From Melioribacteraceae bacterium (GTDB lineage: Bacteria; Bacteroidota; Ignavibacteria; Ignavibacteriales; Melioribacteraceae), in assembly GCA_026983795.1 (NCBI GenBank), contig JALSTI010000237.1:1-38491 (forward strand): a stretch of DNA of 38,491 bases. Direction: 5' to 3'. The translations under genes were made by a program, and so were the position numbers. Of the stretch, positions 2,516 to 3,758 are shown piece by piece (position 1 is the stretch's first letter; every line of letters begins with the position of its first letter). Below the pieces are notes generated by a model, which was not told where the DNA came from, ran no database searches, and worked only from the letters and a program-made list of their open reading frames with translations.

Positions 2516-3070
2516 TTACAAATTAAATTTATCAATATTCCAATTTTCCAGGTTGTTCCGTATATAATCCCGGATCCGGTTTAATGATTTTTCATTTCGA
2601 ATTATATGATCATAAAACCGTGATTGCCATCCGAAATTATAATTATTTTCATTGGCAAATTTTGTTACCGCCGATTTGAATGAACGTATAATTGTTGACA
2701 ATGAACCGGATTTCGGTGAAATGATCGACATTTTATTTGATTTTGATATATTCGGCATATCCGTAGAGACGTTGCATGCAACGTCTCTACGGATATTACC
2801 ATTATCAATCACAACAATACCATGAATATGATTGGGCATCACGCAAAATTCATCCAATACAACAAACGGAAAATGTTCAGGTATTTCACGCCAATATTTA
2901 TCGGCAATTCCTCCGATTTCTGTAAATTGCATTTTTTTATTAACAATTTTACCAAAATAATGTTCGCGATTTTTTGTAACAATTGTTACAAAATATTTGC
3001 CGTTCCGTCCGTAATTCCAATTTTGCAAACGCGTTGTTTCTACGCGGTATTTGTTTTTAAATAACGACAT
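2516..3070 (-). CDS. REP-associated tyrosine transposase (RAYT, Y1_Tnp)
   Basis: A single-domain HUH endonuclease of the IS200/IS605-like Y1 family, 184 residues. The HUH motif is HIH at residues 81-83 within MPNHIHGIVV. The likely catalytic tyrosine is Tyr153 in SRFYDHIIRNE. The N-terminus (SLFKNKYRVETTRLQNW) is typical of RAYTs. There are no flanking insertion-sequence ends, as expected for RAYTs, which are thought to process REP hairpins rather than move themselves. Residues 92-105 are encoded by a perfect 40-bp palindrome and sit in the variable linker between the HUH half and the tyrosine half. The ATG lies in the first copy of a 23-bp direct repeat; no strong ribosome-binding site precedes it. 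The lexA stop is 31 bases upstream on the same strand. Confidence 0.92.
   Translation of the reverse strand: MSLFKNKYRVETTRLQNWNYGRNGKYFVTIVTKNREHYFGKIVNKKMQFTEIGGIADKYWREIPEHFPFVVLDEFCVMPNHIHGIVVIDNGNIRRDVACNVSTDMPNISKSNKMSIISPKSGSLSTIIRSFKSAVTKFANENNYNFGWQSRFYDHIIRNEKSLNRIRDYIRNNLENWNIDKFNL
2757..2796. repeat. REP-like perfect palindrome inside the RAYT gene
   Basis: Forty bases form a perfect inverted repeat centred between 2776 and 2777. The core runs GTAGAGACGTTG then CATG then its complement, and it is bounded by GTAG on one side and CTAC on the other. GTAG next to a hairpin is the mark recognised by well-studied RAYTs. As RNA it would fold into a long stem. It is translated in frame as residues 92-105 of the RAYT. 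A near-identical palindrome lies at 3119-3146. Confidence 0.9.
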
Positions 3071-3114
3071 TTGTTTTATCCGTTTTGCAATGACATTTGT
3101 TTTATCCGTTTTGC
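3066..3114. repeat. 23-bp direct repeat, two copies
   Basis: The 23-base sequence starting GACATTTGTTTTATCC occurs at 3066-3088 and again at 3092-3114, a period of 26 bases. The first copy contains the RAYT start codon (3068-3070). The second contains the lexA stop codon (3102-3104). A second ATG complement in the second copy is out of the RAYT frame. This could be a local duplication formed when the RAYT/REP module landed beside lexA. Confidence 0.85.
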
Positions 3115-3758
3115 CGTGGTAGAGACGTTGCGTGCAACGTCTCTACATTTGTATTCATGTTCCTATAAACGCCAACAACCACGCCGACCAATTTAAAATT
3201 CTCGTAATCTTTTTTAATAATTATCGGTTCGTATTCGGGATTTTCCGAATGTAATTCAATTGCTTTTGATCTTTTGAAAAATCTTTTTACGACTGCCGCA
3301 TCATCTAAAATTGCAACCACTATTTTACCATTTGCCGGTTCTAAATTCGGGTCAACAATTACCACATCACCGCTGAAAATATAGGCATCTTTTAAACTAT
3401 CGCCTTTTACTTTTAGAAGAAACGAATCCCGCGGCATACGTGCAATTGTGGGCAATTCGATCGTCTCAATTGCATCGGGATAGATGGTAAGCGGATTGCC
3501 GGCGGCTACTTCGCCCAAAACGGGTCGGGGAATAAAAAATTTATCTCCCGTAAGCAATTCAATTCCCCGCGAAATCTTTGGATTACGTTTGATATATCCT
3601 TTTTTCTCAATTGCCTGCAAATGCTGCTGTACGGTTGAGCGGTTGCGGTAACCGAAATGTTCAGCAATTTCGGCAAGCGTAGGAACTTTTGCTTCGGCTT
3701 TTTTATCGATTATAAAATCGAGTATTTTCTGCTGGGTTTGTGTTAATTGTGTTTTCAT
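3102..3758 (-). CDS. lexA: LexA SOS repressor with REP-derived C-terminal tail
   Basis: LexA represses DNA-damage genes and inactivates itself by RecA-stimulated self-cleavage. The winged helix is at residues 1-68 (TLAEIAEHFGYRNRSTVQQH). The cleavage site is Ala86-Gly87 in GEVAAGNP. The catalytic serine is Ser121 in KGDSL (most LexAs have KGDSM) and the lysine is Lys158 in AAVVKRF. The normal fold appears to end near residue 200 (VGVVVGVYRN). The last 15 or so residues are unusual: 205-214 (VETLHATSLP) are translated from a REP-like palindrome, and the stop lies in a 23-bp repeat. The tail follows the catalytic domain and need not abolish function. No canonical LexA box was recognised upstream; an 18-bp palindrome lies about 200 bases before the start. 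Confidence 0.93.
   Translation of the reverse strand: MKTQLTQTQQKILDFIIDKKAEAKVPTLAEIAEHFGYRNRSTVQQHLQAIEKKGYIKRNPKISRGIELLTGDKFFIPRPVLGEVAAGNPLTIYPDAIETIELPTIARMPRDSFLLKVKGDSLKDAYIFSGDVVIVDPNLEPANGKIVVAILDDAAVVKRFFKRSKAIELHSENPEYEPIIIKKDYENFKLVGVVVGVYRNMNTNVETLHATSLPRQNG
3119..3146. repeat. REP-like palindrome at the 3' end of lexA
   Basis: A 28-base inverted repeat, GTAG at one end and CTAC at the other, with a single mismatch at the centre (3132/3133). It matches the core of the element at 2757-2796 except at that central position. It lies wholly within lexA and encodes residues 205-214, ending five bases before the 23-bp direct repeat. The RNA hairpin would sit just before the lexA stop. 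Confidence 0.9.

Follow-up and report, generated by a model that had tools for sequence, protein, structure and literature searches.

Comparison of RAYT genes suggests that a hairpin inside their coding sequence is an old cognate site kept at the DNA level

Comparison of a RAYT gene (encoding a TnpAREP-like HUH-Y1 transposase) from a Melioribacteraceae bacterium with its relatives suggests that the REP-like hairpin within its coding sequence is an old cognate site kept at the DNA level and not a chance insertion. The comparison supports the view that the hairpin is long-standing in these genes, stays paired although its sequence and that of the enzyme diverge together, and is similar to the hairpins that flank its own gene. 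The gene lies in a 38,491-nucleotide stretch of contig JALSTI010000237.1, referred to here as the window, and its locus, which carries double-foot REP hairpins, probably belongs to TnpAREP subclass 2.4 (RAYT group 4), the in-gene hairpin being the predicted cognate site that moves with the enzyme gene. Should the coding sequence of a RAYT gene indeed hold the cognate site of its enzyme, each gene would name its own substrate, and substrate prediction, cleavage specificity, and enzyme-site co-evolution would become testable for many genes with no need of a genome-wide search for repeats.

Results

The open reading frame (ORF) at 2516-3070 on the minus strand encodes a protein of 184 residues in which an HUH motif (PNHIH), a WQ pair, and a Y motif (YIRNNL) can be recognized. 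An earlier reading made from the letters of this DNA (the sequence-only reading) had described the product as an HUH transposase, and Pfam agrees, as the ORF matches the Y1_Tnp family (PF01797) over the gathering cut-off (30.9 bits against 23; E-value of 3.3e-7). The sole NCBIfam match of this ORF was NF047646, REP_Tyr_transpos (REP-associated tyrosine transposase), with 56 bits and an E-value of 3.9e-15, which is under the curated cut-off of 80. The HUH motif conforms to the NH[IFV]H pattern, with H81 and H83 invariant across 58 aligned rows, and the WQ pair ahead of the Y motif corresponds to W148 and Q149. Compared to the YIxNNP pattern, the Y motif keeps Y169 and N173 with its final proline replaced by leucine; among 148 relatives, this motif ends in NP in 124 and in NL in 2. 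In an AlphaFold model of the protein (mean pLDDT of 86.5), the insertion that separates strand 3 from helix C in subclass 2.4, variable in both length and sequence, is present at residues 89-123, between a strand at 81-88 and a helix at 124-141. This loop is poorly modelled, with block means of 49-60 at residues 91-120 and values below 50 at residues 98-107. The nearest solved fold according to Foldseek was 4er8, a RAYT bound to a REP hairpin (E-value of 5.6e-7; TM score of 0.53 by query length), and an HMMER profile search of the sequences of solved structures matched 4er8 alone. The Y1_Tnp match, the NCBIfam match below its cut-off, and the nearest solved fold all fit the RAYT-like protein that had been proposed. 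A second copy of the gene was not found in the genome (95% complete), in which matches elsewhere are at most 46% identical; one 48% match lies antisense within the same RAYT gene. The several near-identical genome copies that characterize an IS200/IS605 insertion sequence (subclass 1.1 in PMC6006769) were thus not seen for this gene.

Inside the RAYT gene, a palindrome at 2757-2796 has arms of 20 bases and contains a 28-base GTAG...CTAC core at 2763-2790 (GTAGAGACGTTGCATGCAACGTCTCTAC). A second 28-base GTAG...CTAC palindrome, differing from this core by one base, is located at 3119-3146, 48 bases before the RAYT start codon, where it forms part of the final lexA codons and is read in frame. 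These two near-identical palindromes, with their GTAG starts and CTAC ends, are at the places given by the sequence-only reading and are REP-like in their GTAG feet, but the in-gene palindrome, at 40 bp, is longer than first described. A 22-base core pattern allowing up to three mismatches matched twice in the window compared to no match in 100 dinucleotide shuffles, and the folding energies of the palindromes as single-stranded DNA (about -19 to -20 and -12 kcal/mol) were reached by none of 200 shuffles for either one. The in-gene and lexA-end hairpins agree at 0.89 of their inner positions (rank 5 of 98). Hairpins flanking the window RAYT were found on one side only, namely at 3119-3146. The core at 2763-2790 encodes RRDVACNVST, corresponding to residues 94-103 in the loop after the HUH motif, and the reading frame is kept. 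An AT-rich palindrome is also present in the RAYT gene at 2969-2996 (TTTTGTAACAATTGTTACAAAA), ahead of the HUH codons.

The RAYT gene sits between lexA (3102-3758; 218 residues; TIGR00498, 3e-49) and an ogt-like gene for an O6-methylguanine DNA methyltransferase (1934-2431), with a UPF0047 gene at 1336-1755, all on the minus strand. Only 31 bases separate lexA and RAYT, and a 26-base tandem duplication at 3063-3114 (3063-3088 and 3089-3114; 96% alike) spans the lexA stop and the RAYT start. The tail of the window LexA protein (NVETLHATSLPRQNG) includes the palindrome-coded residues. We compared 20 lexA loci of the family, i.e., the window's own and those of 19 relatives. The LexA proteins of the 19 relatives end at 201-207 residues without a palindrome-coded tail, and none of the 19 stretches fetched around lexA contains a RAYT match near this gene. 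An ogt match is found in 10 of these 19 stretches, and in five of them (L222, L232, L235, L236, and L237) ogt starts within about 80 bases behind lexA, directly following it without a RAYT there. Because lexA lacks both the tail and an accompanying RAYT in all 19 relatives and adjoins ogt in five, the RAYT gene and hairpin at this locus are most simply taken as sequence that was inserted at the 3' end of lexA. The UPF0047 gene is likewise near lexA in five fetched relatives, and lexA with ogt and UPF0047 nearby, again without RAYT, recurs in family genomes (L231, L232, L234, and L235). A conserved lexA-RAYT pairing is not supported by these 19 relatives or by loci L001-L130, among which lexA or ogt matches occur only in loci cut from the window. 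Given the 31 bases by which the RAYT ORF starts behind lexA, the two may be co-transcribed; such co-transcription, and hence control by DNA damage, is a guess. In E. coli K-12 (L238), rayT likewise lies near a DNA damage gene, dinB, about 2.8 kb away, possibly by coincidence.

A RAYT profile search had hits in 49 of the 79 family genomes and, with a stricter cut-off, in 101 of 247 genomes of the phylum, and the RAYT loci compared here are a subset taken from the profile matches listed for both. In the family sample, 92 loci yielded 85 ORFs with both anchors (L015, L059, L083, L097, L111, L117, and L125 were dropped, and L015 was put back by hand before tree building), while 62 of 69 loci gave an ORF in the sample from elsewhere in the phylum (the phylum sample). 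A stem with a score of at least 10 was detected in the loop, i.e., from the HUH motif to the next helix, in 59 of the 85 family RAYT ORFs compared to 21 of 1,700 shuffles, and in 44 of the 62 ORFs elsewhere in the phylum compared to 16 of 620 shuffles; the loops without a stem of score 10 numbered 26 of 85 and 18 of 62, respectively. In the family sample, strong short-loop palindromes numbered 35 for the RAYT loops (10.3 kb), 5 for the remaining RAYT ORF sequence (37.7 kb), 0 for other ORFs (168 kb), and 19 for intergenic DNA (65.7 kb). For the phylum sample, the counts over these four classes were 32 (10.3 kb), 4 (28.9 kb), 9 (95 kb), and 21 (50.6 kb). The stem starts 13 to 16 codons after the HUH motif in 33 of 59 family and 17 of 44 phylum cases and, in the others, 10 to 55 codons after it. 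Loop lengths vary across both samples, and short-loop RAYTs of the family sample are without the hairpin. When the reading frame of 62 strong hairpins with GTAG near their start was considered, GTA was read as a codon in 44 and the frame was shifted by one base in 18, and none was in the frame that reads TAG as a stop. A hairpin also occupies the same loop in a RAYT from Anaerolineaceae (L012). Six RAYT loops of the phylum sample (L159, L162, L187, L188, L189, and L200) contain tandem arrays of hairpin-like coded peptide repeats (e.g., VGARRRP and VAPNNA), which look like the outcome of a multiplied in-gene hairpin.

The sequence-only reading had further proposed that a self-contained RAYT/REP module of this layout could be the source of a repeat found elsewhere in the genome. 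The layout does recur, and the core is not absent elsewhere: allowing up to three mismatches, it is present at 8 places in the 3.35-Mb genome (95% complete) compared to 0 for the reversed pattern, and GTAGAGAC-N12-GTCTCTAC, allowing up to two mismatches, is found at 10 places. However, just 3 of these 10 places are exact, namely the window RAYT, the lexA end, and a second RAYT on contig C89, whose hairpin differs (GCACGGCCGTGC). Each exact copy is thus in or beside a RAYT gene, and the window module is not supported as the source of a dispersed repeat in its own genome, where no large REP population has arisen. The seven inexact places (contigs C22, C62, C147 twice, C199, C218, and C312) are in frame at one site of ORFs that encode a YPNPFNP...YDVLG or YDILG tail, and a type IX secretion sorting domain was matched in all four of the sorting-tail proteins scanned. 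Six of the seven sorting-tail hairpins have unpaired positions, and the remaining one (C218) is fully paired with GTTG feet. Among these frames (L003-L008 and L132, on contigs C22, C62, C147, C218, C312, and C199), L003 and L007 carry extra tandem copies of half the hairpin, and the hairpin of L132 is different in sequence. The same genome also harbors a more distant RAYT-like ORF (L020:1135-1923) with another type of palindrome (GGACAACTTG), two of which follow the HUH motif.

Some other genomes carry more copies of one hairpin, for instance, 7 exact GGGATATATCCC places in G019. G226 has a single place with a GTTGC core, inside a RAYT, and G039 has nine, of which the seven listed include none within the listed RAYT matches; copy number does not strictly track a matching RAYT. 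Exact GTAGRGNC-N10..14-GNCYCTAC sites were counted in the eight family genomes with complete site lists out of 12 searched (G039, G079, G113, and G320 were left out), and 15 of 65 fell within the RAYT matches listed (2/3 in G000, 1/20 in G019, 0/8 in G215, 5/10 in G093, 3/5 in G307, 1/6 in G145, 1/3 in G191, and 2/10 in G226). Since these RAYT matches sum to 18 kb, which is <0.1% of about 27 Mb, RAYT genes show a strong enrichment of such sites, although the majority of the sites are found elsewhere.

The chief rival explanation, which is near the reading of Quentin et al. 2018 (PMC6006769), is that the in-gene palindromes are ordinary REP insertions with no role in the gene, in a loop that tolerates extra residues. 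The low confidence of the loop in the AlphaFold model (49-60 at residues 91-120) is in line with such tolerance, and similar in-frame hairpins are present at one site of the seven sorting-tail frames and at the lexA end. REPs within unrelated genes have also been published (PMC3733652). The hairpin is also missing from short-loop RAYTs, and its start within the loop varies. A recurrent site was not taken on its own as proof of function, given that the sorting-tail reading frames also have their hairpins at one site. On the other hand, RAYT loops contain palindromes of this kind much more often than other ORFs do, and insertions made by chance would be expected to differ between sister genes and to decay.

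The sequences of the hairpins were compared with those of the genes that carry them. A tree was built from 82 RAYT cores with the loop excluded (L073 and cores of <120 residues were left out); its support is modest, with 25 of 79 inner branches well supported. Relatedness of RAYTs on the 82-row tree tends to go with relatedness of their hairpins: the centres GCCGCGGC, CCCGATCGGG, and ATATAT are each mostly confined to one clade, while other centres, including the window's GTTGCATGCAAC, which is also found in L050 and L076, recur in separate branches. Hairpin presence (a score of at least 9 in 69 of 82 rows) requires at least 8 changes on this tree, given here as a raw count. The similarity of the inner arms tracks that of the RAYT cores in the family (r of 0.345; 0 of 5,000 permutations; 64 genes), and hairpin and RAYT similarity are also correlated in the phylum sample (r of 0.246; 0 of 2,000 permutations; 41 genes), contrary to what tolerated chance insertions would give.

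At eight stem positions, in pairs with a core identity of at least 0.55, 966 cells differ on both arms compared to 50 that differ on one, a comparison in which genes with lost pairing are under-counted because detection of a hairpin depended on its pairing. A further rival explanation is that replication, and not selection, keeps the hairpin perfect: in a quasi-palindrome, a switch of template from one arm to the other can make the second a copy of the first, and paired changes would then arise without any function. This explanation would account for the paired arm changes as well as for the near-equal numbers of G-U and A-C mismatches: in 66 hairpins with a stem score of at least 9 and a loop of at most 8 (64 of which entered the similarity and two-arm comparisons), 86 stem cells are unpaired, comprising 22 G-U, 23 A-C, and 41 other combinations. 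Nonetheless, template switching alone leaves unexplained the low third-position divergence and the likeness to flanking hairpins reported below, as well as why other ORFs hold so few such palindromes (0 in 168 kb and 9 in 95 kb), and 6 of the 7 sorting-tail copies in the same genome retain unpaired positions. We consider it improbable. The mismatch counts also bear on a hairpin acting in mRNA, either as a translation brake or as a binding site for the protein on the message that encodes it. The hairpin does lie within the transcript, but the lack of a G-U excess over A-C (22 versus 23) gives no sign that an RNA form is kept, and flanking copies outside the ORF have a similar sequence. An RNA-level hairpin is therefore not favoured, and we regard a role of this kind as very improbable.

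Codon positions were compared in same-frame, same-parity pairs, 34 from the family (core identity of at least 0.65) and 36 from the phylum sample (at least 0.55). In the 34 close family pairs, which are not independent, hairpin divergence at codon positions 1, 2, and 3 is 0.23, 0.11, and 0.12, compared to 0.23, 0.16, and 0.46 for the rest of the gene in the same pairs. In all 10 of the 10 disjoint family pairs, third positions differ less within the hairpin than outside it, and a third-position divergence as low as that of the hairpin was seen in only 38 of 1,436 nine-codon windows of the cores. In the phylum sample, the same result was obtained for 7 of 10 disjoint pairs, the exceptions being the three closest (core identity of at least 0.85), one of which was compared out of register. 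The low third-position divergence therefore indicates that the nucleotides, and not the peptide, are unusually conserved.

Flanking hairpins were examined in 41 genes having both an in-gene hairpin and a GTAG-like hairpin within 300 bases, with shared ancestry uncorrected. The in-gene hairpin agrees with its own flanking hairpin at 0.79 of inner positions compared to 0.49 for other genes (0 of 10,000 permutations). The gene's own in-gene hairpin ranks first of 98 for its flank in 20 of the 41 genes, while the flanking hairpin is less like its own in-gene copy than like the average other in 4. Taken together, the tree, the codon positions, and the flanking hairpins argue against an insertion that is purely incidental, although function is not implied by them. 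With hairpin similarity following the gene and third positions unusually conserved, tolerated insertion of ordinary REPs appears unlikely to us.

Discussion

A cognate site that moves with its enzyme gene is the reading that we prefer for the in-gene hairpin. A stronger version, which we advance tentatively and would rate at somewhat less than an even chance, is that this hairpin is a built-in, DNA-level part of the gene: a recognition site locked to the enzyme by being coded inside it and kept through paired changes at the expense of the loop peptide, so that enzyme and site form one evolving unit. At this locus, one hairpin lies beside RAYT, at the 3' end of lexA, and the other inside RAYT, in a loop that connects the HUH strand to the following helix and is predicted to be poorly ordered. 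By analogy with the family, the RAYT would recognize the single-stranded hairpin through its GTAG foot, for example at replication forks, cut beside it by means of Y169, and join the strands. The in-gene copy would be the predicted site for its own enzyme, carried along wherever the enzyme gene goes. It and the flanking hairpins could be kept perfect and alike by exchange or copying from one to the other, or by selection that acts on both. Several points count against this explanation, including the recurrent site shared by the sorting-tail frames, the RAYT loops without a stem, the variable stem start, the hairpin centres that recur in separate branches of a modestly supported tree, the 4 of 41 genes whose flank is less like their own in-gene hairpin, the three exceptional phylum pairs in the codon comparison, the YIRNNL motif, and the NCBIfam score under the cut-off.

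The presence of a REP inside a RAYT gene is not new. It is a published feature of subclass 2.4 in Quentin et al. 2018 (PMC6006769), which describes "double foot" REPs in frame inside subclass 2.4 tnpAREP genes as insertions and places RAYT group 4 of Bertels et al. 2017 in this subclass. The window RAYT is similar to these proteins in its HUH motif (NHIH), its WQ pair, and the insertion of variable length that follows strand 3 and precedes helix C, and its locus shares with them GT[AG]G...C[TC]AC double-foot REPs and an in-frame REP between the HUH and Y motifs. It differs in the Y motif, which ends in L and not P, and in the single flanking hairpin found. Neither paired evolution nor DNA-level conservation of the in-gene hairpin was found in print in a limited search of open papers that included passages of PMC6006769.

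The E. coli RAYT (rayT, 4er8) has the same fold as the window RAYT and is its best Foldseek match, but the two share 18% identity in the Foldseek alignment, and rayT contains no palindrome with a score of at least 8 inside the gene. The REPs of E. coli are described as bulged, imperfect palindromes that follow a GTAG (PMC8266576). In the RAYTs that have been assayed, changes to GTAG weakened or abolished cutting (Stenotrophomonas) or shifted the cut site (Marinomonas) (PMC8266576). Palindromes within genes are also known from the intragenic GTAG and CGTC REPs and the Rickettsia palindromic elements (PMC3733652), which resemble the hairpin described here in lying in frame in protein genes. Whereas the palindromes listed there occupy other kinds of genes, the palindrome here is inside the gene of the enzyme that is predicted to act on it, in a loop where it recurs from one RAYT to another.
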